Origin: a virus
IMG/VR virus record: IMGVR_UViG_3300032313_000840
Coordinates: 17,932-81,931 of that record
Reading direction: 5' to 3' (one strand)
DNA length: 64,000 nt
Part shown: positions 28,127-63,367 of the stretch, piece by piece
Layout of the letters: each line of letters starts with the position of its first letter
How positions within the stretch are numbered: the first letter of the stretch is position 1
The notes under the pieces: generated by a model
What the model saw: only the letters and a program-made list of their open reading frames with translations
Told to the model about the DNA's origin: nothing
Databases searched by the model: none
Made by a program: the position numbers and the translations under genes

Positions 28127-30304
28127 TTACCTGCCCTTGCGATCCCGGAACTTCATGCCCTCCGGGAAGCAGGGGAGTCCGTAGATCCCGGAGTCCATCT
28201 TGCGGATGGGCTGACCCGCCACGATGTCCACATACCGGGTGAGGAACACGCGGCTACCTGCCCGCTTGCCCATCGTCTTGATGAACTGGTTCTTCACCTT
28301 GGTGAAGTTACCTCCGGTGGCAATCGCCTCCTCGTCCTTGACGGGCTTCGGGGTCTGAATGAGGAAGTACGAATCGTAGCCGGGGAAGGTATCTTCGTGC
28401 AGGACGAGGCATCCCTCCTTGAACGCTTCAGCCGCAGCCTTGTACCGCTCCGAATCTCCAACGGTCACACCACCCTTGTAGTGATGGGAGATCGAATCGG
28501 CATTCTTCTGCTTCTCCTGTTCGCTCAAGCAGAACTGCTCAAAGCAGCGTTCCGTCAGGATACGAGTGGGCATCACATACATTCCAACGCATCGGGCGTT
28601 CAACTTGGTGCGGAGCGAATTGAGCATGGCGCAGATGACGCCATCGGGCAGATTCGTCCTGCCGTTCTTGTTGTCGATGACGGTGACCGTATCAAGGATC
28701 TCGTTCGTCACGGTGAGGGAAGTACCTTCGCCGTACCAGTAGACTCCATCCTCCTTGGAGGTGCTGATGTGGTTGGGGCAACCGTCCGTCACGACCATGA
28801 TCGTGGGGATCTGAATGTTGTTCTCCTGCACCCATCCCGCCATAAACTGGGAAGTGAGGGCAATGCACTCCACCGTGGGCGTACCGTTCAGGGTGAGGTA
28901 ACGGGAAGTGGGGCGGGTCTGCTGCACATAGGTTTCGTAGATGTACGCACACAGACGCTCACGCTTGGCCGCATCGTCCTTGGAGGAGGCAATGTTCAGC
29001 AGCCTAGCCGTCCCGATGTGCATACCCGTGGGGCAGTCACGATTCAAAGCCTGCGCGCACCATTCACGGTCGAACTCGTAGGAGAACTTGTCGGGGTTTT
29101 GCTTCCTCCATGCATCACACGCAGCCTGATACTCGGGATCAAGGTTGCCGTAGACATCGGTGTAGCCGAACACCTCAAACGGGATCTTCGCCTTCTCGCA
29201 GAACCACACCAACTGGAGAACCTGAAGGTAGGCGTGGCCGATGGTCTGACCCATGCTGCCGCTGAAGTCAAGCATGAACACGATGCCGTGGTTCTTGCCG
29301 TCCTGCTTGACGATCTTCGACAGGAAGATATCGTCATGGGTGCGGTACTGGTGGAGGCGGTCAAGGTTCAGCATCCCGGTCTGCTTCGGACGCTCACGGC
29401 GGATCTCGTCCGCAGCCTTCTTGCGCTCAAACTGCGCGGCCATCTGACGGACGAACGCATCGGACTCACGGACGAACTGGCGGTACTCCTCAAGGAGCAG
29501 CGGCCTGTTGCTGTTGCCCTCGTAGTCGTTGAGGATGGTTTCCGTGCTGATGATGTGCTTGGACAGATCCTTGACCCCGGTGATGGTGACCACCGCGTCC
29601 TGATACTGCGAACCGTCCTTGCGGCGGAAGTCACCGGGGACATCGTTCTTGTCGCCCATGATCTTGTCCTGCTCCTTCTCACCCTGCTTGCCACCCTTGG
29701 CAGCAGCAGCCTCCATCTCCTCGCGCATCTTCTTCATGGAGGGGTGGTCGTACAGGAACTTGGCGACCTCAAAGACCTGATCGAAATTGACCACACCGTC
29801 CACCATGTCCACGACCTCCTGCTCCGTCCCCTCAAAGGTCATGGGGATGAAGCCGGGGATGCCGAACTTGAAGTGAATGTTGAGACGATTGAGGAACCCG
29901 GCCTTCGCCAAGTCCATCTTCTTGAAGCCGAACAGGTCAAGGTCTGCGATCTCCTTGTAGCCAAGGAAGAAGTCACGGCGAGTGCCGGGGAACTTCTGCT
30001 TCATCAACTTCTCGATGCGGACATCTTCGATGATGTTGGCGATCCGCTGAAGGAGCATGGCGTTGTAGCCGTCCGCCTCCGCAGCCTTCAACAACTCCTC
30101 GCTGCGCTCGTAGGGAGTCCACATGGCGTGGCTGATCTCGTGGGCCACGAGCATGGTCTTGACGGTTTCGGTCACATCCCACATCGGCATGATGAGGTGA
30201 CGCGACTTGACATCGAACGATGCGGTTTCAGCGTCCTTGGAGAAGGAGAACGAAATGTTCTCGGATGCGAGAGCCTTGGCAAAGATGGAGAGAGAGGTGT
30301 TCAT
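28127..30304 (-). CDS. VWA-domain protein with N-terminal HExxH (CobT-like)
   Basis: 725 residues from MNTSLSIFAK; the start is set by a promoter 6 bases upstream. HEISH at 55-59 is a zinc-metallopeptidase-type motif. DFSGSMGQ at about 345 is the MIDAS start of a von Willebrand A domain, with a TDG-type loop (VVTDG) further on. The architecture recalls CobT/VWA partners of MoxR-type AAA+ ATPases, and such an ATPase is encoded at 30735-32084. MoxR-VWA pairs act as ATP-driven remodelling or metal-insertion chaperones; cobS/cobT-like genes occur in other T4-like phages without clear cobalamin roles. A long antisense open frame exists but has no promoter or domain. Confidence 0.82.
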   Translation of the reverse strand: MNTSLSIFAKALASENISFSFSKDAETASFDVKSRHLIMPMWDVTETVKTMLVAHEISHAMWTPYERSEELLKAAEADGYNAMLLQRIANIIEDVRIEKLMKQKFPGTRRDFFLGYKEIADLDLFGFKKMDLAKAGFLNRLNIHFKFGIPGFIPMTFEGTEQEVVDMVDGVVNFDQVFEVAKFLYDHPSMKKMREEMEAAAAKGGKQGEKEQDKIMGDKNDVPGDFRRKDGSQYQDAVVTITGVKDLSKHIISTETILNDYEGNSNRPLLLEEYRQFVRESDAFVRQMAAQFERKKAADEIRRERPKQTGMLNLDRLHQYRTHDDIFLSKIVKQDGKNHGIVFMLDFSGSMGQTIGHAYLQVLQLVWFCEKAKIPFEVFGYTDVYGNLDPEYQAACDAWRKQNPDKFSYEFDREWCAQALNRDCPTGMHIGTARLLNIASSKDDAAKRERLCAYIYETYVQQTRPTSRYLTLNGTPTVECIALTSQFMAGWVQENNIQIPTIMVVTDGCPNHISTSKEDGVYWYGEGTSLTVTNEILDTVTVIDNKNGRTNLPDGVICAMLNSLRTKLNARCVGMYVMPTRILTERCFEQFCLSEQEKQKNADSISHHYKGGVTVGDSERYKAAAEAFKEGCLVLHEDTFPGYDSYFLIQTPKPVKDEEAIATGGNFTKVKNQFIKTMGKRAGSRVFLTRYVDIVAGQPIRKMDSGIYGLPCFPEGMKFRDRKGR

Positions 30305-30339
30305 GCGCACATTGTAACCGATGCGGGGGAAGAAGTCAA
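30305..30339 (-). promoter_or_regulatory. sigma70-type promoter, leaderless arrangement
   Basis: TTGACT (30334-30339), 17-base spacer, TACAAT (30311-30316), 6 bases to the ATG at 30304. Confidence 0.85.
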
Positions 30340-30360
30340 CCCACAAACAAAGTTTATTTT

Positions 30361-30734: not shown

Positions 30735-32084
30735 TTAGGCGTTCATGGCGTACTGGGTGTCGGTGTCGGGGTTGGACAACTTATCCAACTGTGCTTTCAA
30801 TTCTGCGATCTTCTTCTGCTCTGCGGTCAGAGAGTTCACCGGGTTGCTCACCGGGGCATCCTTCATCCCCTCCGGGACAGGGAGGATCGTGGGGTCGATC
30901 TTCGTGTAGAGGTTGAAGAACGCCTCCTTCGTGGACGCATCGAACCGCGTCAGCGTCAACTTGATGGCCTTCTCCTTGTCGCCAAAGATGGCGAACGCCT
31001 TGCACACTTCCTCCAAGCGGCGGGTGGTGATGATGTCATCCAGTCCGCCCTCCTTGAAGCCCATGCGGATCGTTTCCGCCCACTTCGTGAGGTACTGGGC
31101 GAACTCCTTGTCCTCCTTGCCGTATGCCTTCATCTTGCGGATGATGATACGCGCTTCGATGGTGCGATCCGCGTAGTCCTGCTCAAACCAGTAGGAGAAG
31201 CGGTCAAGGAACGCCTCGTTCATGCAGCGCGTACCCACGAACCGATCAGACTCGCCCTTGCCCTTGGTGTTGGCAGTCGCCACCACATTGAAGCCGGAAG
31301 CGGGCTTGATGAACATACCGATCTTCTTGATGTAGATGCCCTTGCCCTCAAGCACGGGCTGAAGGCACATCATGCGCTCCGTCCCGAGGTCGATCTCGTC
31401 CAACAGGAGGATAGAGCCGCGCTGCATGGCCTGAACCACGCCACCGAACACGAACTTCGTTTCGCCGTTGACGAGGCGGAAGCCACCGATGAGGTCATCC
31501 TCGTCCGTTTCGGCGGTGATGTTGACGCGAATGCACTCGCGGCCCGTGGAGGCGCAAATCTGCTCCACCATCGTGGTCTTGCCGTTGCCGGACATACCCG
31601 TGATGTAGACGGGAGCGAACTGCTTGGAGGCGAGGATGGTGGAGATGTCATCGTGGTGACCCCACGGAACGAAAGTCTCGTTCTTGACGGGGACGAGCGA
31701 AACATCGGAGGACGGCATGACGAGGTTGTAGGTGTTGCTGTTCATGTTGCTGATTGTATCACAAGTTTCGGAGGAAGTCAAGGTTTCGGAAGAAGATTCG
31801 GAAATATTTTCTTCCACGGTATCGGACTCTGCGGGATTGTATTCAAGCACGACCATCTCCGGGATGATGTACTTGCCACGACCTGCACGGCGGTTCTTGG
31901 GCTGAACCAGCCAAGCCGGGAGGACTCTGTAGGAATGCTCGCTACTAAGGGCATAGGACTGGCCAAGTGCCTCAAGGCATTGCTCACGGGTGTAGACTGC
32001 TTCCCCGATGGTCTGCGGAGTGCCGAACAGGATCTGAAGGGCATTGAGGAAGTTACGCTTGCGAATGTCGATGTTGCTGTTCAT
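30735..32084 (-). CDS. MoxR/CobS-type AAA+ ATPase
   Basis: 449 residues. The N-terminal 150 include a DNA- or adaptor-binding-like part and a Ser/Glu linker. The AAA+ core has Walker A GMSGNGKTT (about 163-171), AETDEDDLIGGF (about 185-196), Walker B ILLLDEID (about 225-232), sensor 1 ATANTKGKG and an Arg-finger region FLDRF. The GGxxxxxG-Walker spacing and DEIDLG are typical of CobS/MoxR. The final 40 residues form a coiled coil. Partner of the VWA protein downstream. Leaderless promoter. Confidence 0.87.
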   Translation of the reverse strand: MNSNIDIRKRNFLNALQILFGTPQTIGEAVYTREQCLEALGQSYALSSEHSYRVLPAWLVQPKNRRAGRGKYIIPEMVVLEYNPAESDTVEENISESSSETLTSSETCDTISNMNSNTYNLVMPSSDVSLVPVKNETFVPWGHHDDISTILASKQFAPVYITGMSGNGKTTMVEQICASTGRECIRVNITAETDEDDLIGGFRLVNGETKFVFGGVVQAMQRGSILLLDEIDLGTERMMCLQPVLEGKGIYIKKIGMFIKPASGFNVVATANTKGKGESDRFVGTRCMNEAFLDRFSYWFEQDYADRTIEARIIIRKMKAYGKEDKEFAQYLTKWAETIRMGFKEGGLDDIITTRRLEEVCKAFAIFGDKEKAIKLTLTRFDASTKEAFFNLYTKIDPTILPVPEGMKDAPVSNPVNSLTAEQKKIAELKAQLDKLSNPDTDTQYAMNA

Positions 32085-46243: not shown

Positions 46244-46271
46244 TTGACCAACAGTAACCATGTGTTATTAT
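46244..46271 (+). promoter_or_regulatory. sigma70-type promoter of the GMP reductase gene
   Basis: TTGACC (46244-46249), 16-base spacer, TATTAT (46266-46271), 8 bases to the ATG at 46280. Confidence 0.6.
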
Positions 46272-46279
46272 TGTTGGCC

Positions 46280-47317
46280 ATGATTGTAAACTACGAACCA
46301 AAACTAGATTATTCAGACGCACTCATTGTACCAAGACTTTCGGATGTTAAGTCTCGCAAAGATGTAAATCTTGAAGTTGGTACTACTTTTAATTGTGGAT
46401 CTTCTTGGAGTGGTGTGCCAATCATGGCAGCAAACATGTCCACGGTAGGAACACATCAGATGGCGCTTGTATTGTCAGAATACAAGATGATTACTTGTCT
46501 GAAGAAAGGTGGCGAGTATTATGTTAACTTTGTCACCAGTTATCCAGATAAAGAAAAATATGTGTCATTGACTCTTGGATTGGATTCTGAGAGCAAGTTG
46601 TTTGTTGATACTGCAACGATCAATGATCCTACATTTATTTGCATTGATGTTGCAAATGGTTACATGACAGAGTTTCATAATTTTACAAAGAAAGTGAGAG
46701 AGAAATGGCCGAAGTCAATATTGATGGCAGGGAATATCGTAACCCCAGAGGGGGTCGTGGCATTGTCAGATGCTGGAGCCGATCTAGTAAAAGTGGGAAT
46801 AGGATCGGGGTCGATGTGCCTGACACGCAGAGTAGCCGGAGTGGGATATCCCCAACTCTCAGCGGTCATAGAGTGTGTGGAAACCGCAACAGCGTTAGGT
46901 ATTGGGATCGTATCTGATGGAGGGATTGTACATCCCGGCGATTTTGCTAAGTCTTTTGTGGCTGGAGCTGCATTTGTTATGGCTGGAGGTGCATTTGCAG
47001 GCCATGACGAGTGTGGTGGAGAAATTCGTCACTCCAATAATAACGCATCACTCACGATGCTTCATTATGGTATGTCCAGCAAAACCGCAAATGAAAAATA
47101 CAACGGAGGACTTAAGGATTACCGTGCTTCCGAGGGCCGCACTGTGGAAGTACCTTATCGTGGATCTGTACATCATACCGTTCAAGAAATTCTTGGTGGA
47201 TTGCGCTCTGCTTGTTCGTATGTGGGTGCTTTTAATTTGCCTGAACTGTATTCGCGTGGTACAATGGTTAAGGTCAATCGTACTATAAACAACATTTTTG
47301 AGAATCACGAAATATAA
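46280..47317 (+). CDS. guaC: GMP reductase / IMPDH-family enzyme
   Basis: 345 residues from MIVNYEPKLDYSDALIVPRL. IMPDH/GMPR barrel signatures: WSGVPIMAANMSTVGTHQMA (about 44-63), the phosphate-site GNIV and GADLVKVGIGSGSMC (about 166-180, with catalytic Cys near 180), then SDGGI and GGAFAGHDE. The N-terminal SDALI/SRKDV pattern and lack of a CBS insert favour GMP reductase (GMP to IMP with NADPH) over IMP dehydrogenase. It could rebalance purine pools during infection. The catalytic loop GIGSGSMCLTR differs from the usual GIGPGS(V/A)CTTR. Confidence 0.85.
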   Translation: MIVNYEPKLDYSDALIVPRLSDVKSRKDVNLEVGTTFNCGSSWSGVPIMAANMSTVGTHQMALVLSEYKMITCLKKGGEYYVNFVTSYPDKEKYVSLTLGLDSESKLFVDTATINDPTFICIDVANGYMTEFHNFTKKVREKWPKSILMAGNIVTPEGVVALSDAGADLVKVGIGSGSMCLTRRVAGVGYPQLSAVIECVETATALGIGIVSDGGIVHPGDFAKSFVAGAAFVMAGGAFAGHDECGGEIRHSNNNASLTMLHYGMSSKTANEKYNGGLKDYRASEGRTVEVPYRGSVHHTVQEILGGLRSACSYVGAFNLPELYSRGTMVKVNRTINNIFENHEI

Positions 47318-51105: not shown

Positions 51106-51387
51106 ATGTATCGTGGTGAATATAAAAAATTCTCTGCTGATGGAACTCTGAACGTATATTCAGCAGGGGATTATGTTTTATATCAAGGAAAACTTTGGAA
51201 AGCACAGTCTAATACAAACAGTGCTCCATGGGAAACAAACAATCCTTGGGAATTTACAGGTACTACTGAAACTTATATTTCAGACAGTATACCAATAAAT
51301 CCTGTCAAAGGTCAGTTTTGGGTTACAAATGGCCGAATGTATGTTTACTATTATGATGGAAACGGTTATTCTTGGGTAGAAATGTAA
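51106..51387 (+). CDS. carbohydrate-binding-module-like protein
   Basis: 93 residues. NVYSAGDYVLYQGKLWKAQSNTNSAPWETNNPWEF (about 17-51) follows the CBM5/12 (chitin-binding) pattern: Y..GD.V.Y.G..W.A..... P.....W. A second aromatic block (FWVTNGRMYVYYYDGNGYSWVEM) could be a similar repeat. Coupled to neighbours. May help the virion bind a surface polysaccharide. Confidence 0.7.
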   Translation: MYRGEYKKFSADGTLNVYSAGDYVLYQGKLWKAQSNTNSAPWETNNPWEFTGTTETYISDSIPINPVKGQFWVTNGRMYVYYYDGNGYSWVEM

Positions 51388-51976: not shown

Positions 51977-52342
51977 ATGAAAATCCCAGAGCTAGTTTAC
52001 GAAATTCGCAACTTGGCTCGCAAAGAAGAAGATCCCGTCAAAAAGGATCTTTTTTATCAATGCGCCAAATCAATGGAAATTCTTGGCAATCTTGCAAAGA
52101 TATCCGATCTAGCGGTTGCAGAACATGCAGCAGCAGAAGCCCCGGCAATAAACGAAGACGACAACATCAAATGGAATGTCGATGATGTTACTTTAAAAAT
52201 GCTGGATGAGCATATAGATGCTTTGGTGCACTATGGATTCATGGACAAAGATGATAGATGGCCCTATGGCGATCAACCATTTACAAAATTTGTATCAAAA
52301 TATCTAAAATCTCAAATTGTAAACGATTCTAACACCGAATAA
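51977..52342 (+). CDS. hypothetical helical protein
   Basis: 121 residues, ribosome binding site AAGGAG. Helical, with ARKEEDPVKKDLFYQCAKSMEILGNLAKISDLAVAEHAA. Its last 31 bases overlap the convergent metalloprotease gene. No family recognised. Confidence 0.65.
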   Translation: MKIPELVYEIRNLARKEEDPVKKDLFYQCAKSMEILGNLAKISDLAVAEHAAAEAPAINEDDNIKWNVDDVTLKMLDEHIDALVHYGFMDKDDRWPYGDQPFTKFVSKYLKSQIVNDSNTE

Positions 52343-52911
52343 ACCTTTGGTGGGATAGTTTTATGGCTGAGTACAGCCATATTTGATGGCATAATCTTTA
52401 AAACATACTTGCTATAGTATGGATTTCGCTTGTATGAGTGAAATTTACGAGTTTTTTCCATCAAAAAGTGGCTGTAGATGTACACATGGGCTCGTTTTGC
52501 GTACATTTTGCTGTTAATGGCTAGGTTGAAGTCCTTGATGATCTTCATGGCTCGTCTTTCGCAGTCTCTCTCCATGGCTCGTACAATGAAAAAAGCCCGT
52601 TTTACCTTTTTGAGAGGATAATTTTTGCCTTTTAACCACGCATCAACAATGGTTGATGCCTCATAAGATTTGTTATAAATTTTAGAGCTGTTTATATATT
52701 GCAAAAAATGGCAATATTCGTGTACCAGAACCTGCATAAATTCATTTGCTTTGCCCGCCACGGCAATAGCCTTTCCAGATTCATCAAAATAGCCAGAACA
52801 ACGGAAACCATCTACATTTACATGCTTTCCACGGCCAATAATAAGTTTCATACCGTATTCTGCGAGATGTTGCCTCACAAATTTTACGAACTGACGATTG
52901 CTCTGAGCCAT
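52312..52911 (-). CDS. zinc metallopeptidase-like protein (HExxH)
   Basis: 199 residues. LVHEYCHFLQY (about 62-72) is a zincin motif HExxH, and a downstream helical segment with E (RAMERDCERRAMKI, about 110-123) may supply the third ligand. No signal peptide. It has a leader with GGAGG, unlike the leaderless genes. Possible roles are virion protein maturation or host protein cleavage; not determined. Confidence 0.72.
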   Translation of the reverse strand: MAQSNRQFVKFVRQHLAEYGMKLIIGRGKHVNVDGFRCSGYFDESGKAIAVAGKANEFMQVLVHEYCHFLQYINSSKIYNKSYEASTIVDAWLKGKNYPLKKVKRAFFIVRAMERDCERRAMKIIKDFNLAINSKMYAKRAHVYIYSHFLMEKTRKFHSYKRNPYYSKYVLKIMPSNMAVLSHKTIPPKVYSVLESFTI

Positions 52912-52947: not shown

Positions 52948-52975
52948 TTGACAGTTAGGATATGGGGTGTATATT
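52948..52975 (+). promoter_or_regulatory. sigma70-type promoter
   Basis: TTGACA (52948-52953), 16-base spacer, TATATT (52970-52975); leader of about 25 bases with AAGGAAAG before the ATG at 53006. Confidence 0.75.
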
Positions 52976-53005
52976 ATTGCAACTTCTTATAAGAAAGGAA
53001 AGTTT

Positions 53006-53242
53006 ATGGAAATTACTACTGTTGATCGTCCGACCAAGATTCAGAGAGTGTTTGATTTTATGCGCAGCGGTGCATCTTTGACTGCTGGCGAGGCTCGCAA
53101 GCGTTTCCGCGTTACTAATATGCGCGCAACGATGCATGATCTCCGTGAGGCTTTTGATCGCTTTGACATGAACTACACCGTAGTTCGTGAGACAAAGAAT
53201 GGTCGTTCGTACTACCGTGTAGTCCGTAATCGGTCTCGTTAA
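53006..53242 (+). CDS. small winged-helix-like DNA-binding protein
   Basis: 78 residues. KIQRVFDFMRSGASLTAGEARKRFRVTNMRATMHDLREAF (about 10-49) is a helix-turn-helix with a long recognition helix, basic tail RVVRNRSR. Leadered gene with its own promoter and terminator, as expected for a regulator. Target unknown. Confidence 0.7.
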   Translation: MEITTVDRPTKIQRVFDFMRSGASLTAGEARKRFRVTNMRATMHDLREAFDRFDMNYTVVRETKNGRSYYRVVRNRSR

Positions 53243-53261: not shown

Positions 53262-53297
53262 CAACAAAAGCTCCTTTTAGGAGCTTTTGTTGTATTT
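53262..53297 (+). terminator. intrinsic terminator
   Basis: CAACAAAAGCTCC-TTTTA-GGAGCTTTTGTTG followed by TATTT. Confidence 0.85.
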
Positions 53298-53325
53298 GCG
53301 TATAAATATAATGTGAGATCTTCAT

Positions 53326-53559
53326 ATGCCTAAAAAAGCCTGTTGTCAATGTGTTGCCAAACGTTCCTGTTGCAATCCAACATTGTATGAAAATTTCATT
53401 ACATTATATGGAAATACAATGTTAACTGCATCTCCCGTACATCCTACTGACATTCTAGTTTTAAGAATGAACAGACCGGGAGTACAACGAAATCCTAGAA
53501 TCTTGTTTAATCCACCAGTCAGTGGAACAGACCCATGTGCATGTGACTGTGAAGGTTAA
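53326..53559 (+). CDS. small Cys-rich virion-type protein
   Basis: 77 residues with CCQCVAKRSCC (about 6-16) at the start and CACDC near the end. Leadered behind a TATAAATA box. First of a cluster of Cys-rich proteins (also 53585 and 59120). Confidence 0.62.
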   Translation: MPKKACCQCVAKRSCCNPTLYENFITLYGNTMLTASPVHPTDILVLRMNRPGVQRNPRILFNPPVSGTDPCACDCEG

Positions 53560-53584
53560 TTAATAAATTTATTTTGGTATAAAA

Positions 53585-56500
53585 ATGGCATCTATTTTTT
53601 CAAATAATAATCAATCAGACTTTAAAGATACTCCACCTGCAATAAGATATGAGTCTAATCTTTATCAAGATAATTTACAAAAGTGTTCAGACATATATCC
53701 GCAAGAATGTTGCGATTGTATGTTTAAAAACGATACAACTAATGATTGTTATCAAAGATTTGGAATTGGTTGTGAGCAACTAGCAAAATCAAAATGTGTT
53801 GAGTGTGGTGGTGCTTGCTCAAATATTTGTGATCCAGATTACGGATCTGATTTGGTTCCTCCACCAAATCGTTCTTTGGCTACTTGCAATGAAATAATTG
53901 GTAATGATTGTGTTAATTATTTAAGAGATATAAATGTTATTCCTTCTGTAGGTTTAGGTTCAAGTAGTGAAATTATTGGTTCTCAATGTTCTCGTCTACT
54001 TTCATTATTATGTGGAAATAGTCCTTTTCAAACTTGTCGAGGAACACAGGGATTGTGTTCAAGACCTGATCTACTAGACAATACTCCTTGCAAAGATTTT
54101 TGTGATAGATGCCATCCCTGTCCTTCAGGTGGTTCAAATCCAGTAGGAGACCCAACCGAACAAATAGATAATCCTGGAGGTTCTTCAGGAGAAGATAATG
54201 GCAATAATAATGGATGTGCTGGACAACCATGTAACCCCCCAGATCCAAATGACTGTAGGCAATGTCTAGCTGGATTAGGAGTACCTAGATCAGAACCTCT
54301 TGATATAATGTATAGACATACTGCATGCCATTTTATATGGTATCCCCCAGAATATGCTTTTGGTGGAGATCCAAATGTCACGCAATGTCAGGGATTTCAA
54401 TCAAGCGGGCAAGGTGGCGGAAATTCACGTGTTTTATCATGCAATCCAGATGCTACTCCATTTGGTAACGGTTATGTTGGAGCTTCTCCAAGTTTAGAAT
54501 TATTTGATGTAAACTGTGATGCTGGTCCAAGTCATTATTACTGGCCTCTTAGACCTTGTAATTGTCGTAAATTTGCACATTTAAAAGGAGGATTGACAGA
54601 CACTATATTTAAGAGAGAAAATATTTCAACAAAACCATTTAGTTATGGTTATTTGCCTTTTATGAATCCTTTTGCAACACCAATGAATATAAGTGAAATT
54701 GGATGTTGTTGGTGTGCATCCCCGGATAAATTGCCTAGAGGAACTTCTGTAAATGACAGAATTCAGGCATCATCGTGGCCAAATGCTGCTCAAAAATATG
54801 GTGCAGGAAATTTCGGTGCTGCTGGTGCAGGATGTACGCCATACACACCGGGGGCAAATAATGATCCGGTATCATATAATTCAAAATATCAAAAATCTTG
54901 TTTTGCTTATGGCATATCACCCTATTTACAGCGCCTTGCACTATTGGGTGATCCAAATTATGGGTCATATAAATCGGGATTTGATATTTGGACTTTTGGT
55001 GGCATTGATCAAGCAAGAGATTTGGGGCCTTTATATTCTGTATATCAGTTTTTAAATAATAAACAACTAGGTGGAGTAAATGATTATACTATAAAATATA
55101 GAGAGATTACTGGTCAAAAATCAAGATTAAAAGATTCTTTAGTAGGATTTGTAACATTAGAACATCATTTTGAAGCTTGGGCGCATAGATCTGATGTAGG
55201 TGCTCTGCATCCAGATCTAGTACCCAATTTAAACCATGCAAATGTTTTAACAACTCCATTTGAACGTCCTTATTCTGGTTACATAACACCAGTTGGTGCT
55301 GCATCACAAGGAATTTCAGCTAAATTTAAATATCATCCAGAAGAAGCTTTAAGATGGTCTTTAATGAGAACTACACCAAGAAGATTTATGTATGTTGGTT
55401 CTCAAATACCATTATTTCATTTTGATTTATATACTTTTCAAGATTATTCTATAAATAATAATTATGTTGTTGGTGGTGAATATTTTGATTCGGCTAGATT
55501 TTTAAAAGCATATTACAATTATTTCTATAGTTTATCTGAAAATCCGTCGCAGAGTTCATCCAATGCGGTTACACCAATAAAAATTGGAGATACGGTTTTA
55601 ATTGATGATTATAACTATGTAATAGAATCATTAGAGGGAATGGTTGTTGCTGGAATACTTAGAATAAAAGATCATGCTATTGATATAGCGACTGAAACAA
55701 CTCAGATAATACAGTCAGCAAGTTATGATAATGATGGTGAACTTGTTTTAAATCCTTATGTATCAGCAGTTGTTGGTGGTGCATCTGGTTATATGGCTTT
55801 AGTAGAGTTTTTAGGAGTTGAACCCATCACTGGTTCAGTAACTCCAAAAATTATTAAACAAAAATTACTTCCAAATTTTAGTGGAACTGGCAGTGATCCT
55901 ACTAAAGATATGTTTATGTTTCCACGTAGAGCAACTTTGCCAGTATATCTTGAAGGAAACGAAGTAGCAGCATGGGGATGCAAAAATAATAGTTGCTCTG
56001 ATTTTAATTATAATCAAAGTGTTGTACCTGGGCGTCTGATACCGGGTGGATCTAATATTCCACCCAACGAACAGTGGTTAACAAAATCAATAGTAAGCGT
56101 ATATAGTGGGTTAAATACCAACTATTTTATAACATATAATGGAAAAATAGCAGCATCCGGGTATTCTTTAAATGGTTTAGAAGAAATACCATTTGATATT
56201 AGGGTACAAATTAATAATGAATCAGCAAATAGTAACACTGAACTTGGATTTGTTAAAAAATTAGGTGGCAAAGGTATAGATTTTGAAATTGCTCTAATCG
56301 AATATCCTGAATTTTATGATTATAATGAAGCTATTTCTCTTCCTCTTTGTGATAATTCCAATAGTGGTGATGGCGGAGTTGTCCCAATACCAGAGCGTGA
56401 TCCAAATGCTCCATTACCTCAATATAAATTAAAATCATGGGGTGATAATCACTGCGAATATGGTACATTTATTATTGGTAATAATGAACTTTTAAACAAA

Positions 56501-59092
56501 ACTCATGGATGGGCTGATGTTGCAAATGGCGGATTACATACTTCAGCGATAACATCATTTGGTAAATTATATACTGTAGGTGATAATGCATATAACCAAT
56601 TAAAATATGGCAATCAATCTGAAACTGTTTTTCTTGGAGCTCTATCAACACATGTTGCAAAGCCAGGATTTGTTTCTGATAATGAATTTGATGTTGCAAT
56701 TATTCCTAATAATGCTGATTCATTTACAGTAGAAATAAATGGTATAACCTATGTTAATTTAAACAGATGGTGTCAATATCCATCTACTCAAGAAGTTCCA
56801 CCAGCAGATAAAAGATGTCAATTACTTGATCCAGAAAATTTTGATGTTAATCTTCCTATTTTTACAAATATTGGTTCTGGTAATTATCACAATGTTGCTA
56901 TTCAAAGTGATAATCAAGTTAGAGTGTGGGGAAAATACTTATATTTAAATCCACTTGGAACACCATATGGTACTCCATATGATACTTTTGTTCCAGCTGA
57001 AGTTAAAGCATTGGCTGACAAATGGGATGTTTCATATTATGGGGCATCGGAATTGCCTTTTGGAGATTATAGTTACATCTCTAAAGGCGCTACATTAGCA
57101 TCTATACACAGTGAAAATGATAAATTCCTTTTTGCTGATGGTGGTCCAGATTATAGTATGGTTGCAAATAACAATACAGTATATGTCTGGGGTAGAACTG
57201 AAATGCTTCCATCTTGGAAGTCTACGGATACCGAATCAACTTTTGGTAGTTGGAGTAAATCATTTGACGGAGAAATTATAAAAATTACTGCTGGTGCAAA
57301 TGGATTTGCTGTTTTATATAAATTAAATAATGAAACTTCAAATGCTGGTTTTGGAAATAATAATTTTAGAGTAAATAAAACTTATATATGGACTCGTAAA
57401 GGACAAGAAACTCCACCCGATGGTGATCAATATGGTTTAATACCAACAGATGATGAAGATATAAGTGAATTTGGTTATAGTGATATAGCATTTGGCTATG
57501 GGCATGCAATAGCATTAAAATATTCTGATATTGTAGCCCCCACATGGGATTATAATGACTTTAAAGATCCAGAGGCAAAAAAGAATCAATTTTTAGCTGG
57601 ATCTTCAAATATTCCAAAATATTTTAAACGACAAGCATTTTTTAGAGCAGTTCCCGGAGCTTGGGATTTTTCAAAATGGTTATGGGGTGGATATTGTAGT
57701 TTTGCAGCAGAAGGATTCGAAGCAAATAACCCAGTATTGGCCAGAGATCTTTGTAGTGTATTGGGTGAACCAGATCCAACAGATGCAACAGGTTTAAGAA
57801 ATGACAACTATTCATATAGTGGTCATCCTGAATATTATTGGATGAGTCCATTATTAAGAAGATATCAAAACTTTGTTCCCAATCACAGTGTTCAACCAGA
57901 TCCATTGAACAATCTATGTTTAACTTATGCAGCATTTGGCAATCCTCTTACAAATCCAGATGTAGCAGGAATGAATTCAGGAGTAAACGGAGCAGCATCT
58001 TCATGTCCTGAAAAAGCAGACGTGTGTTGGCAGGCAACCGGATTACCTCAACAGAAAACAAGCACATATTGGGCACCGGAAAACCCGGACTGTGCCGGTC
58101 AATGTGATAATTCGTGCGATAGAAGTGCTTGTATTAGAAATTGTTGTCCTGTTGGAGTTCCTGTTATATCTGATACATGTACAGAGTGTATTGGTAGAAT
58201 AGGATTTAATTCTAGTAAAGATTACTTTATACAATCGTATAAAAATTTTAGTAGACAAAGGAACTGTTGTAGAGTAATTTATACAAATATAAGTTATGTT
58301 AATTATGCATCACGATTAACATATTTTGGGTGGGATAGTGCCTCTGCTACTTTTAAAATATTTTTTACAAAAGATCCATATAGATTTACTGATCTTATTC
58401 CAAGTAATGCCAATACTTCATATAAACTTGCTAATGGTTTAATATATCCTTATGTATATCTTGGTGGTGAAATATTAAGAAGATTATGGTCATCTTTTAG
58501 TAGTGCTATATATGGAGATGATGGAACTGGAAGAACATGTGAAAATAGTGGAGATATATGTTTATCAAGAACTCCAAAAGAAACAATTTTGGGTCCAGGT
58601 GGTTGGTTGTGGGCGACTACTAATAGTCCAGATGGAAGACCTTCGACAAACGAAGAAGGTAATTTTGTCAATAGCATATGGTCTTACCCTGTAGCCGCTC
58701 CATTAGTATCACCTTATGCTCTTTTAGGTGCATATACATATGGTGGTACATCAACAGGTGAAATAGTACCAAATGGATCTTCAATACCAACTGACATAAA
58801 AATATTTAATCCAGATAATCCAGACGCTTATGCGCCTATATACGGATCTCCAACCTCAACAAAATGGCATAAAATAAATGTAACTAGGCCAAATATTTAC
58901 TCTGGCGGTGATAATGAATTAACAACTTTTGATCCAATAGCATTTATAGGTGGTGTGGAAGAAGGAGATATAACAGGAACCGCAAATATTGTTTATTATG
59001 AACGTTATGAAACAGATTCATCTGGTAATAGAATAAGATTAATAGATATAAAATCAGGTAATATAAATTGTCAAGACATTACCGACGGATAA
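53585..59092 (+). CDS. giant Cys-rich virion protein with RCC1-like repeats
   Basis: 1,835 residues, the largest gene of the window. Many Cys pairs (for example ECCDCMF, CVECGGACSNICD, CDNSCDRSACIRNCC) lie at both ends, suggesting disulphides or metal sites. The middle (about 790-1320) contains RCC1-type beta-propeller units: AAWGCKNNSCS, LKSWGDNHC.., GLHTSAITSFGKLYTVGDNAYNQL, NYHNVAIQSDNQVRVWGKY, DYSMVANNNTVYVWGR and GYGHAIALKYSD. Such propellers bind protein or DNA partners. Probably a tail-fibre or adsorption device; no catalytic motif seen. AT-rich, late-type gene. Confidence 0.68.
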   Translation: MASIFSNNNQSDFKDTPPAIRYESNLYQDNLQKCSDIYPQECCDCMFKNDTTNDCYQRFGIGCEQLAKSKCVECGGACSNICDPDYGSDLVPPPNRSLATCNEIIGNDCVNYLRDINVIPSVGLGSSSEIIGSQCSRLLSLLCGNSPFQTCRGTQGLCSRPDLLDNTPCKDFCDRCHPCPSGGSNPVGDPTEQIDNPGGSSGEDNGNNNGCAGQPCNPPDPNDCRQCLAGLGVPRSEPLDIMYRHTACHFIWYPPEYAFGGDPNVTQCQGFQSSGQGGGNSRVLSCNPDATPFGNGYVGASPSLELFDVNCDAGPSHYYWPLRPCNCRKFAHLKGGLTDTIFKRENISTKPFSYGYLPFMNPFATPMNISEIGCCWCASPDKLPRGTSVNDRIQASSWPNAAQKYGAGNFGAAGAGCTPYTPGANNDPVSYNSKYQKSCFAYGISPYLQRLALLGDPNYGSYKSGFDIWTFGGIDQARDLGPLYSVYQFLNNKQLGGVNDYTIKYREITGQKSRLKDSLVGFVTLEHHFEAWAHRSDVGALHPDLVPNLNHANVLTTPFERPYSGYITPVGAASQGISAKFKYHPEEALRWSLMRTTPRRFMYVGSQIPLFHFDLYTFQDYSINNNYVVGGEYFDSARFLKAYYNYFYSLSENPSQSSSNAVTPIKIGDTVLIDDYNYVIESLEGMVVAGILRIKDHAIDIATETTQIIQSASYDNDGELVLNPYVSAVVGGASGYMALVEFLGVEPITGSVTPKIIKQKLLPNFSGTGSDPTKDMFMFPRRATLPVYLEGNEVAAWGCKNNSCSDFNYNQSVVPGRLIPGGSNIPPNEQWLTKSIVSVYSGLNTNYFITYNGKIAASGYSLNGLEEIPFDIRVQINNESANSNTELGFVKKLGGKGIDFEIALIEYPEFYDYNEAISLPLCDNSNSGDGGVVPIPERDPNAPLPQYKLKSWGDNHCEYGTFIIGNNELLNKTHGWADVANGGLHTSAITSFGKLYTVGDNAYNQLKYGNQSETVFLGALSTHVAKPGFVSDNEFDVAIIPNNADSFTVEINGITYVNLNRWCQYPSTQEVPPADKRCQLLDPENFDVNLPIFTNIGSGNYHNVAIQSDNQVRVWGKYLYLNPLGTPYGTPYDTFVPAEVKALADKWDVSYYGASELPFGDYSYISKGATLASIHSENDKFLFADGGPDYSMVANNNTVYVWGRTEMLPSWKSTDTESTFGSWSKSFDGEIIKITAGANGFAVLYKLNNETSNAGFGNNNFRVNKTYIWTRKGQETPPDGDQYGLIPTDDEDISEFGYSDIAFGYGHAIALKYSDIVAPTWDYNDFKDPEAKKNQFLAGSSNIPKYFKRQAFFRAVPGAWDFSKWLWGGYCSFAAEGFEANNPVLARDLCSVLGEPDPTDATGLRNDNYSYSGHPEYYWMSPLLRRYQNFVPNHSVQPDPLNNLCLTYAAFGNPLTNPDVAGMNSGVNGAASSCPEKADVCWQATGLPQQKTSTYWAPENPDCAGQCDNSCDRSACIRNCCPVGVPVISDTCTECIGRIGFNSSKDYFIQSYKNFSRQRNCCRVIYTNISYVNYASRLTYFGWDSASATFKIFFTKDPYRFTDLIPSNANTSYKLANGLIYPYVYLGGEILRRLWSSFSSAIYGDDGTGRTCENSGDICLSRTPKETILGPGGWLWATTNSPDGRPSTNEEGNFVNSIWSYPVAAPLVSPYALLGAYTYGGTSTGEIVPNGSSIPTDIKIFNPDNPDAYAPIYGSPTSTKWHKINVTRPNIYSGGDNELTTFDPIAFIGGVEEGDITGTANIVYYERYETDSSGNRIRLIDIKSGNINCQDITDG

Positions 59093-59119
59093 AGATATAA
59101 ATAAAAATGGAGTGTATAT

Positions 59120-59608
59120 ATGTTTATTGATAGATTTACTTTTAATAATAATGTAACTGAAGATGGAAGAGGCTCCACGGTAGCAATACCAAATTATGAA
59201 AATCCAAAAGATAAAATGTATCCAAATTTTATCTTTAAAAAACGGTTATCATATGAATTTAAAATTGAAAAAATGTTTGGTATTGTAAAGAAGTATGTTG
59301 GATTTGGTGATATAATTGAATATATAACCAAACATACTGGAATAAAATACCTTATTGTTAAAATAACAAAAGGCAATTGTGGTTGTGAAAAAAGAAGAAA
59401 ACGTTTTAATGTCTTGCTACAAATACCTTATTTTTCTTTTTATTATAAAGATACGACTATTTTAGATGTTGACAATTCAATAAAACATGTTAAGATGTTT
59501 ACATCAAACACCCCGCCAATGGATGAAGATATGCAAAAAGAAATTCTTTCCAAAAGAAAACCATGTGGGTGTGGTGCTAAAATGACACGACCTGTGGAGA
59601 CAAAGTGA
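59120..59608 (+). CDS. hypothetical protein with two Cys clusters
   Basis: 162 residues. CGCEKRRKR near residue 92 and CGCGAK near 153 could bind metal. Leader of 16 bases after TATAAATA with a GGAG ribosome binding site. Ends with overlap to the next gene. No family recognised. Confidence 0.62.
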   Translation: MFIDRFTFNNNVTEDGRGSTVAIPNYENPKDKMYPNFIFKKRLSYEFKIEKMFGIVKKYVGFGDIIEYITKHTGIKYLIVKITKGNCGCEKRRKRFNVLLQIPYFSFYYKDTTILDVDNSIKHVKMFTSNTPPMDEDMQKEILSKRKPCGCGAKMTRPVETK

Positions 59609-59877
59609 AAATTAAATTTATAAAAATATCGCAAAGTGAAGAGATAATTGCCGAGTGCACAGATAAAAACAACGGTGTCTTTATCAAAGACGCTGCTGTC
59701 ATTGTATCTTTAGAATTGGGAAAAATTAATCTTGTAACTTGGTTACCGTATACAAAAGTACAAGATGGTTTTTTCCTTCCAGAAAAAGCCTACCTGTTCA
59801 TAGCAGATGTACAAGATGACATGGCTGAGTATTACAATAAATGGCGTAATGAACATTTTGCACTAAATAAAAATTAA
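59605..59877 (+). CDS. Sm-like protein, paralogue of the 49386 gene
   Basis: 90 residues from a GTG that overlaps the upstream stop (GTGA). MKIKFIKISQSEEIIAECTD..GVFIKDAAVIVSLELGKINLVTWLPYTKVQDGFFLP aligns along its length with the protein at 49386 (S-x-E-E-I-x-A, K-D-x-A, G-x-I-x-L-x-x-W-L-x-Y-x-K). Probably a small beta-barrel. Function unknown. Confidence 0.7.
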   Translation: MKIKFIKISQSEEIIAECTDKNNGVFIKDAAVIVSLELGKINLVTWLPYTKVQDGFFLPEKAYLFIADVQDDMAEYYNKWRNEHFALNKN

Positions 59878-61184
59878 GCAATATTTATTCTAAGAACATT
59901 TGTTGTGTTCTTTTTAATTTGCATGAATATGGTCTTTGAAGAATATGCTCTATCTACCATATAGATAAAGGATGCTCCTTCATATCCAGGTTCACCTAAA
60001 AGGTAATAATTTTCAATTAAAGGTTGAGTGCAGTTACTGTCTAAAAATACATTTATTACAGCACTTTTATTTTCCGCATCTGAAAGATCAATTTTAATTG
60101 GAGCAACTGCAGTATTACTGTTGATTGATAGTGTCTCTGTTTCAATATTATCAATATAAATCAAATCATTATATTGGTTGGTTCCAAGAAACTCTGAAAT
60201 ATTAAAACCATCAGTATTAAAAGAAATAAAATACGAAGTTTTAATTTTTAATATAAAGACATTTGAATAAGAAATAGAAATATTTTTATAATCTACAATA
60301 CTTTCTGTATTGGCATTGATTGTCTTTAATGTGCTATTGGGATAATAGTAATATACATTTGCAGTATCTAGTTGTTGTCTCAATGCATGTTGTAAAATAT
60401 TTTGGTTTTCCAATAACATTGAAACAATACCAGAAGTTGCTCCAGCAATTTTAATTACACCATTTTGCAATGGATTTGTAGCCAACACAGCTAGCGAAGG
60501 AAGACCTCGGTGCAATATATCAACTTGAGATTTATTAAAAAATCTATTTTCATTGGTTACTGGATTTGTAAGATAAATTACTTCTGTATTATCATTTAAC
60601 TTTACATAATTTTTTATTTTAAGTCTTCCAGAGTTTAATGTACTACCAATAACTTCTACATATTCTTCAAATCCATAATCGGATCCATATACACCAAAGA
60701 AATCAAAATTTAATGGACTGCTTCTAGGTGTATTTGATATTAAAATATTAGCAGTATTACCTGTTGTTGCAGTAAACTGTATAGGATTCGTAAAATTTTT
60801 ACTTACGTAATACCCACCAGTAAGAGCTGCAGTGCCCGTAACACCAGAGCATGAGATATATTGTTTAAAAGTTCCAGATATACCTTGTAATTGTAACGTA
60901 CCATTCCAATTTATACTAGAAGAGGTAGCATCGTTATAATATACTCCACTAGAAAAATTAAAAGTGCTTCCAGTTGTAAGCCCATTGAAAAATTTATTTA
61001 AAAACTTTAAATCATTTCCAGTTTTTACTTCAGAATAATCAAAGAACAACGAGTTACCAGTAACAAAAATATTAGCAGAACCATTTAGATTTCCTTTTGT
61101 AAAACAAGGATCTGCCGTATTACCAACAAATTGTGTTGTGTATGAATACGATGTTTTTGCTATATTTAACGAAAATAAAGACAT
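59874..61184 (-). CDS. virion structural protein, beta-rich
   Basis: 436 residues, Ser/Thr/Asn/Tyr-rich and beta-strand-like throughout (SGVTGTAALTGGYYVSKNFTNPIQFTATTG..). Second gene after 61186-62133, coupled across 1 base. No domain recognised; composition and neighbours fit a head decoration, whisker or fibre protein. Confidence 0.65.
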   Translation of the reverse strand: MSLFSLNIAKTSYSYTTQFVGNTADPCFTKGNLNGSANIFVTGNSLFFDYSEVKTGNDLKFLNKFFNGLTTGSTFNFSSGVYYNDATSSSINWNGTLQLQGISGTFKQYISCSGVTGTAALTGGYYVSKNFTNPIQFTATTGNTANILISNTPRSSPLNFDFFGVYGSDYGFEEYVEVIGSTLNSGRLKIKNYVKLNDNTEVIYLTNPVTNENRFFNKSQVDILHRGLPSLAVLATNPLQNGVIKIAGATSGIVSMLLENQNILQHALRQQLDTANVYYYYPNSTLKTINANTESIVDYKNISISYSNVFILKIKTSYFISFNTDGFNISEFLGTNQYNDLIYIDNIETETLSINSNTAVAPIKIDLSDAENKSAVINVFLDSNCTQPLIENYYLLGEPGYEGASFIYMVDRAYSSKTIFMQIKKNTTNVLRINIA

Positions 61185-62182: not shown

Positions 62183-62210
62183 TTGATTATTGAGATATAA
62201 CGTATATAAT
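62183..62210 (+). promoter_or_regulatory. sigma70-type promoter, leaderless arrangement
   Basis: TTGATT (62183-62188), 16-base spacer, TATAAT (62205-62210), 6 bases to the ATG at 62217. Confidence 0.75.
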
Positions 62211-62216
62211 AAAACC

Positions 62217-62450
62217 ATGTATATAGATGAAGCAGCAAAAGAAAAATTTTCAAATAAAGTTTTAGATAGAGTAAAATCTACAAAACTTAGTTTTATGGAT
62301 TGTATACTTGAATTATCTGAAGAAATGAATATTGACCCAAGTACGGCTGGTAAACTTATTACCAGACCAATAATTGAAAAAATTCAAATTGAAGCCAGAG
62401 ACCGCCATTTACTAAAGAATGGCAAAACCAAGAAACTCCCAATTGACTAA
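62217..62450 (+). CDS. 33: gp33-like late transcription co-activator
   Basis: 77 residues. MYIDEAAKEKFSNKVLDRVKSTKLSFMDCILELSEEMNIDPSTAGKLITRPIIEKIQIEARDRHLLK matches the T4 gp33 family, which bridges RNA polymerase and the sliding clamp at TATAAATA promoters together with gp55. The many such promoters in this window support the call, as does the position just before gp32. An upstream in-frame start (62190) lies inside the promoter and is rejected. Confidence 0.82.
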   Translation: MYIDEAAKEKFSNKVLDRVKSTKLSFMDCILELSEEMNIDPSTAGKLITRPIIEKIQIEARDRHLLKNGKTKKLPID

Positions 62451-62509: not shown

Positions 62510-63367
62510 ATGTCAAACTTTGCAGATTTTAAGAAGAAGAGTAAGAACTCAGTCGCATCTCTAACCGAGCGTATGGATAAGCTCACCTCCAAGGAGAGTT
62601 ACAAGGACGAACGTCTTTGGAAGCCCGGTATCGATAAGTCCGGTAACGGATACGCTGTAATCCGTTTCCTGCCTGAAATTCAGGGCGAAGATACCCCCTT
62701 CGTATCAATGTACAGCCATGCCTTCAAGGGTAAGGGTGGTTGGCTTTTTGAAAATTGCCCAACTACAATTGGTGAGAAGTGCCCCATTTGTCAGTCTAAT
62801 ACTGAACTCTGGAACAGTGGTATTGAAGATGACAAGAACATTGCACGGAATCGTAAGCGTAAGTTGGCTTACATCTCTAATATTCTTGTCATTGAAGATC
62901 CTGCCAATCCAGAGAACAAGGGAAAGGTTTTCCTTTACCAGTATGGCACAAAGATCTTTCAGAAGATTCAGAGCCTCGCTCACCCCGAGTATCAGGATGA
63001 GGTTGCAGTTGACCCATTCAACTTCTGGACTGGTGCAGACTTCAAGATCAAGATTCGTAATGTCGGAGGTTACGTTAACTATGATCGGTCAGAATTTGCA
63101 TCTCCTGCCCCGCTTCTTGGTGGAGATGACAAGAAGCTAGAGGAACTTTGGAAGAAGCAGTATCCTCTGAAGCCATTTGTTGATAAGAGCCAGTTCAAGA
63201 GTTACACAGAACTCACTGAACGATACAAGAAGGCTGTTGGCGATGATGTTCGTGCTCAGTTTACTGAAAACAAGAGCATTGAGGATGATGTGACAGACAC
63301 AGTGGTGTCTGAAGACATTGAGGAAAAGGATCCTCTAAAGTACTTCTCTGAGATGGAGAACGATTGA
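62510..63367 (+). CDS. 32: single-stranded DNA-binding protein gp32
   Basis: 285 residues. N-terminal cooperativity region with KKKSKNSVASLTERMDKL (T4 LAST-like motif S-V-A-S-L), DNA-binding core with Zn ligands (H..., then CPICQSN), YSHAFKGKGGWLFENCPTTIGEKCPIC, and an acidic C-terminal tail ending FSEMEND for partner binding. gp32 coats ssDNA in replication, recombination and repair. Own promoter and leader hairpin; strong terminator downstream. Confidence 0.95.
   Translation: MSNFADFKKKSKNSVASLTERMDKLTSKESYKDERLWKPGIDKSGNGYAVIRFLPEIQGEDTPFVSMYSHAFKGKGGWLFENCPTTIGEKCPICQSNTELWNSGIEDDKNIARNRKRKLAYISNILVIEDPANPENKGKVFLYQYGTKIFQKIQSLAHPEYQDEVAVDPFNFWTGADFKIKIRNVGGYVNYDRSEFASPAPLLGGDDKKLEELWKKQYPLKPFVDKSQFKSYTELTERYKKAVGDDVRAQFTENKSIEDDVTDTVVSEDIEEKDPLKYFSEMEND

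Follow-up and report, generated by a model that had tools for sequence, protein, structure and literature searches.

A giant cysteine-rich protein with RCC1-type repeats, probably expressed late, in environmental T4-like phages: a candidate host-contact device

What use would a T4-like phage have for a protein of 1,835 residues that combines an RCC1-type domain with an unusual wealth of cysteines? The question arises from one open frame in a window of 64,000 nucleotides (positions 17932-81931 of an 81,931-base virus record), to which all coordinates below refer. A first-pass annotation had proposed a disulphide-stabilised adsorption device, new in design for a T4-like tail.

Architecture of the giant protein and its RCC1-type repeats

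The giant frame begins with ATG, contains no internal stop and is uninterrupted in relatives at 88-96% identity, so it is not an assembly artefact. Its originally annotated size and richness in Cys are confirmed, as the intact frame encodes 59 Cys (3.2%), against 0.66% (44 of 6,654 residues) in 16 other window genes selected by size. The crowding of Cys toward both ends, also part of the original description, is equally evident, with two blocks that hold 35 and 18 Cys separated by a long region that includes a Cys-free stretch (440-798), and one Cys at position 1829. The layout comprises the following elements; conservation is greatest in the central core and in the stretch that follows the propeller.

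53585..59092, + strand: giant Cys-rich protein with an RCC1-type domain, 1,835 residues
53684..54901, + strand: Cys-rich N-terminal region with 35 Cys, residues 34-439, including CxC and GCCWC motifs
55085..55879, + strand: conserved core free of Cys, residues 501-765 (LEHHFE ... KDHAIDIA), without a match in Pfam or the PDB
55964..57547, + strand: predicted RCC1-like propeller domain, residues 794-1321, with the centres of its seven units near residues 842, 895, 982, 1099, 1186, 1237 and 1304
57560..57904, + strand: conserved stretch following the propeller (AFFRAVPGAWDFSKW...YSGHPEYYWM), residues 1326-1440
57695..58561, + strand: C-terminal Cys-rich region, residues 1371-1659, 18 Cys

The presence of RCC1-type repeats, first suggested by inspection, is borne out by profile searches. 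PF13540 matches the giant protein at 26.8 bits (cut-off 22), and PF25390 does so at E 4.2e-15, but with 56 bits, below its cut-off of 150. At E 0.01 each of the two matches 13 of 14 family members, in which no other Pfam family was found at that threshold. A profile of residues 770-1340 built from seven sequences matches UVR8 (2.6e-11), HERC2 (1.7e-10) and RCC1 (1.6e-5), mostly via unit 3, and RPGR is also among its matches. PHROGs gave a weak RCC1-type match (E 0.012) and NCBIfam no match for the giant protein, while the silence of PF00415 on the record is uninformative, since its control genomes gave no match either.

The seven unit positions were marked by eye ahead of the PSSM and hhalign tests, and the figures from both are therefore somewhat flattering. 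In a held-out PSSM test over 1,719 positions, units 3 and 7 rank first, unit 4 second, unit 1 third and unit 6 tenth, with units 2 and 5 reaching only ranks 164 and 300; an earlier leave-one-out HMM test did not recover the units. Alignment of unit against unit with hhalign (14 diverse members) gave seven pairs (3-4, 4-7, 4-5, 3-7, 2-7, 1-4 and 2-6) that exceed all 420 controls and jointly link all seven units, the remaining 14 of the 21 pairs lying inside the control range. AlphaFold2 models of the two halves of the protein, each computed from a shallow seven-row alignment that predates the more diverse relatives L051-L092, display no interpretable fold (mean pLDDT of 29.0 and 31.5). As both models reached a mean pLDDT of only ~30, the propeller is a fold that we infer, and on the profile and repeat data a seven-bladed propeller is very probable.

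A T4-like neighbourhood and signals of late expression

The genes and signals surrounding the giant gene are:

51106..51387, + strand: 93-aa CBM_5_12-like protein (PF02839, 27.1 bits, cut-off 26.2)
53262..53292, no strand assigned: terminator-like 13-bp inverted repeat (CAACAAAAGCTCC ... GGAGCTTTTGTTG) ahead of the putative late unit, read directly
53301..53308, + strand: T4-type late promoter element TATAAATA, 25 nt before the ATG of ORF 53326
53326..53559, + strand: 77-aa Cys-rich protein, 8 Cys, a detached N-terminal module of the giant protein, alignable to the N-termini of eight homologues in which it is fused
59096..59103, + strand: late promoter element TATAAATA, 24 nt before ORF 59120
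59120..59608, + strand: 162-aa protein encoded beside the giant gene and carrying two CGC motifs (GNCGCEKRR...PCGCG)
59605..59877, + strand: 90-aa conserved neighbour
59874..61184, - strand: 436-aa conserved neighbour with no assigned function, whose relatives led to locus L042
61186..62133, - strand: 315-aa conserved neighbour with no assigned function
62190..62450, + strand: gp33-type late transcription regulator, assigned from place and length; the L043 counterpart matches phrog_254
62510..63367, + strand: gp32 single-strand DNA-binding protein (phrog_224, E 1.7e-104)

Assignment to a T4-like phage is supported by gp32, by the late-promoter regulator gp33 and by the adjoining baseplate cluster. 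The window gp32 matches 2,421 INPHARED records, the best 20 of which, mostly cyanophages, show ~53-56% identity. Beyond gp33 and gp32, as scanned on L043, lie baseplate hub, tail-tube, head-closure, tube-cap and wedge genes, and L042, L052 and L092 present the same gene order. The T4-like cyanophage S-PM2 (gp33, DUF1825, gp32, gp53, gp48) shares gp33, gp32 and the baseplate cluster in neighbouring order; it differs in giving no giant-protein homologue in the search and in the genes upstream of gp33 and gp32, so that the giant gene and its neighbours sit where S-PM2 carries other genes.

The neighbourhood recurs among relatives. At the loci with the downstream side examined, where counterparts were assigned by length and order and a subset by alignment, a 134-223-aa gene stands next after the giant gene; then come a 90-110-aa gene, often the 93-aa CBM_5_12-like gene, two opposite-strand genes (434-441 and 304-335 aa) and, where the contig extends, gp33 and gp32. 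L060 is the sole exception for the 134-223-aa gene, presenting a gap in the ORF list instead. A CBM_5_12-like counterpart lies inside the cluster in most relatives, those of L042 and L052 being recognised by eye and not significant by Pfam. In most loci examined the left boundary of the conserved cluster is a 199-aa gene (52312-52911, - strand), whose product carries an HEYCH motif and weakly resembles metallopeptidases (DUF6782/SprT, below cut-offs). Immediately upstream of the putative late unit, a winged-helix protein (52967-53242, + strand) scores above the cut-off for HTH_39, and most relatives carry an ORF of like size (77-99 aa) at its place.

As far as sequence tells, the proposal of late expression is also supported. 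The late promoter is given as TATAAATA for T4 and as NATAAATA for S-PM2 in a cyanophage review (PMC2984593). Across 15 family operon starts, several of which are near copies, exact TATAAATA occurs at six, while NCTAAATA, which is off the T4 consensus, is the element in eight; at L056 a late element was not found within reach. The TAAATA core is present at 14 of the 15 starts, compared with 865 of 30,000 random 37-nt windows; it lies at -23 or -24 in 11 of them, usually directly after a terminator-like repeat, and a hairpin-like repeat stands at the matching spot before most of the 15 operons. TATAAATA is not commoner in the records than its reversed control, and of its sites in the window only 3 of 11 lie 15-32 nt before an ORF start. 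Taking the core, the 25-nt spacing in the window and the gp33 counterpart together, unit 53326-59092 is probably expressed late. Elsewhere in the window, three TATAAATA elements (10271, 13246 and 17656) are each followed by an ATG exactly 13 nt after the element start, a spacing too short for the usual leader.

The family, its detachable N-terminal module and its cysteines

Stepwise profile scans located homologues of the giant protein on 27 IMG/VR contigs (25 from one scan plus the contigs of L008 and L042), with full-length members of 1,835-2,490 aa and identities to the window protein down to ~27%. No homologue was found on GTDB contigs in either of two scans. Among the 50,697 phage records of INPHARED, tblastn gave no match to the window protein at 1e-5 and none to L052 or L060 at E 1. 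With L006 and L042 at E 5, the weak local matches obtained were judged to be chance; the best (E 0.08) falls on a hypothetical protein from an Erwinia phage, with relatives named EPS depolymerase. By these scans the family is widespread and conserved in environmental T4-like phages and has no homologue among the cultured phages searched. Photosystem reaction-centre genes, sought as a host clue, were found in none of five records, each possibly a fragment.

The 77-aa product of ORF 53326 was initially regarded as an independent small protein, an interpretation that was dropped upon its alignment with the N-termini of homologues. By alignment, its module is fused to the start of the giant protein in L052, L056, L058, L059, L060, L061, L062 and L064 and is separate in L006 and L057, as in the window. 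By eye, L092 is fused, and L084, L085 and L091 carry a separate 134-aa Cys-rich ORF at the corresponding place. A tree of 18 rows contains 9 fused and 7 split members, the 16 with a known start, plus two with an incomplete start and no assigned state, and the labels require three fusion or fission changes, all forced by well-supported branches. The module is therefore a detachable piece that occurs in cis or in trans. The suspected link between the giant protein and ORF 53326 is accordingly upheld in a stricter form, the ORF being a split-off piece of the giant protein, while the description of both flanking proteins as Cys-rich holds for ORF 53326 (8 Cys in 77 aa) and is generous for ORF 59120, whose 162 aa include 4 Cys, arranged as two CGC motifs.

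The two chains also diverge in step, the giant protein being 89/50% and the 77-aa protein 91/48% identical to L004/L006. In the comparison of the window with L004, the giant gene has the highest dN/dS of six genes tested (0.30), followed by the genes for the 162-aa (0.20), 315-aa (0.16), 436-aa (0.10) and 199-aa (0.05) proteins and by gp32 (0.03). These rates fit an exposed giant/77-aa pair, short of proof; non-virion genes can evolve fast too.

How the cysteines might act is a separate matter. In a seven-row alignment that includes two identical rows, 52 of the 59 Cys are kept in all rows, and across 14 members 25 of the 59 persist in 85% or more of the rows that cover them. The cytosol is where T4-type virions assemble. 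Binding of zinc or iron-sulphur in a protein that matures in this reducing compartment, with no disulphides, is a serious possibility, if somewhat short of an even chance; the numerous short CxC, CxxC and CCxC motifs suggest metal sites, and the conservation across the 14 members points the same way. Against it, some variable Cys appear and vanish as pairs (101 with 135, 916 with 929, 1730 with 1735), a pattern behind which stand only three lineages and which suggests disulphides, as partners would behave in this manner. The disulphide mechanism first envisaged for the giant protein is a guess, and metal binding is just as likely.

Possible roles and relation to known phage proteins

The explanation that we favour is a late giant protein of a T4-like phage, encoded by unit 53326-59092 as two chains here and as one chain in most relatives, which would sit on the virion exterior close to the tail and touch the host surface. 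Residence in the virion is likely. The more detailed assignment, in which the conserved core and the Cys-bearing ends would form an anchor and scaffold and the propeller an exposed binding platform for host contact, is tentative. Through the Cys clusters, either metal or disulphides would bind the modules to one another and to the detached N-terminal piece. Counted in support of the explanation as a whole are the RCC1 repeats, the synteny with gp33, gp32 and the baseplate genes, the late-promoter core, the fused module, the dN/dS values, the CBM_5_12-like gene and virion precedents; counted against it are the absence of homologues in the cultured phages searched, the lack of a usable structure model, the weak unit tests and the non-enrichment of TATAAATA. 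On this balance the full explanation is plausible rather than probable, and adsorption, although the likeliest single reading of the role, is likewise credited with slightly less than an even chance.

The nearest precedents are propeller proteins of other phages. GAP32 gp001, of the Rak2-like jumbo phages and with relatives in 121Q, PBECO4 and phAPEC6, is likewise an RCC1-type phage protein; it carries an RCC1/BLIP-II domain and was detected in virions by mass spectrometry, and the Kelch propeller protein CBB_552 of phage CBB was also found in virions (PMC5259590). However, gp001 belongs to a different phage group and is a stand-alone propeller of 385 aa with a single Cys, and homology beyond the repeat type was not found: hhalign of the family profile against it gave 2% probability (E 0.024), compared with 0.2% for an unrelated window protein, and tblastn provided no link in INPHARED. 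The CBB proteins (CBB_550, 552, 554), also propellers of a contractile-tailed phage, are Kelch and not RCC1, and the passages of PMC5259590 covered report no Cys-rich giant architecture for them. The propellers of RCC1, UVR8 and HERC2 give a significant profile match over the repeat units, but their functions are not transferable; to our knowledge these proteins are cellular, short and without Cys-rich giant flanks. No description of the giant Cys-rich cis/trans family was found in the titles and abstracts covered on phage RCC1 proteins, Cys-rich virion proteins and GAP32; an RCC1 phage protein that is probably in the particle is itself a known kind, because GAP32 gp001 was found in virions.

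Three other roles were considered for the giant protein. It could be a structural or decorating element of tail, neck or baseplate that makes no contact with the host, in which the propeller would act as a platform for protein-protein contacts and the Cys blocks would stabilise the whole. Proximity of the late unit to the baseplate cluster and the strong conservation of the central core and the post-propeller stretch agree with such a part, but the giant gene evolves fast relative to its neighbours and cultured T4-like cyanophages lack it, so that it is not an essential T4-type component, and this reading appears unlikely. A late intracellular assembly factor or host-modifying protein is given a similarly low probability: presence in the virion is deduced from sequence, the operon adjoins the non-structural gp33 and gp32, and the window encodes other Cys-rich, probably non-virion proteins (for example ORF 47940, 3.7% Cys), while size, late start, the CBM_5_12-like gene and a set of neighbours that stays constant next to the baseplate cluster speak against it. 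Least probable is a DNA-organising protein that is ejected or resides inside the head. For phAPEC6 and its eleven RCC1-like proteins, this role was only suggested, on the grounds that RCC1 of eukaryotes meets nucleosomes, in PMC7247149, which itself states that the prokaryotic function is not known. RCC1 folds bind many partners, as HERC2, UVR8 and RPGR among the profile matches illustrate, and neither Cys-rich giant ends nor a CBM-like neighbour point to a DNA core protein.

Carried further, the favoured host-contact explanation would describe giant adsorption appendages of a new class, a doubtful extension at present, in which the core and RCC1 propeller are framed by Cys-clamped modules. 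The N-terminal clamp would act in cis or, after repeated fission, as a separate 77-134-aa chain docking via its Cys, with metal locking it inside the cell or oxidation doing so upon release. Independently of this extension, the data define a family of very large, Cys-rich and probably late proteins in T4-like phages known from environmental DNA alone, and extend the sparse record of phage RCC1 proteins by a second group with no detectable relationship to the first. The fused and split forms of the N-terminal module offer a natural cis/trans pair for studying assembly and, if the protein is a host-contact organ, it would show how these uncultivated phages meet their hosts.

Three further genes of the window are recorded here. 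A probable VWA-type protein (28127-30346, - strand), with a DFSGSM motif recognised by eye and no Pfam match, adjoins an AAA_5 ATPase (30735-32084, - strand), the two forming a MoxR/VWA-like or CobS/CobT-like pair; in both genes the opposite strand, too, carries long open frames. A dehydrogenase gene (46244-47317, + strand; phrog_9582, E 3.7e-103) encodes 357 aa with 7 Cys.
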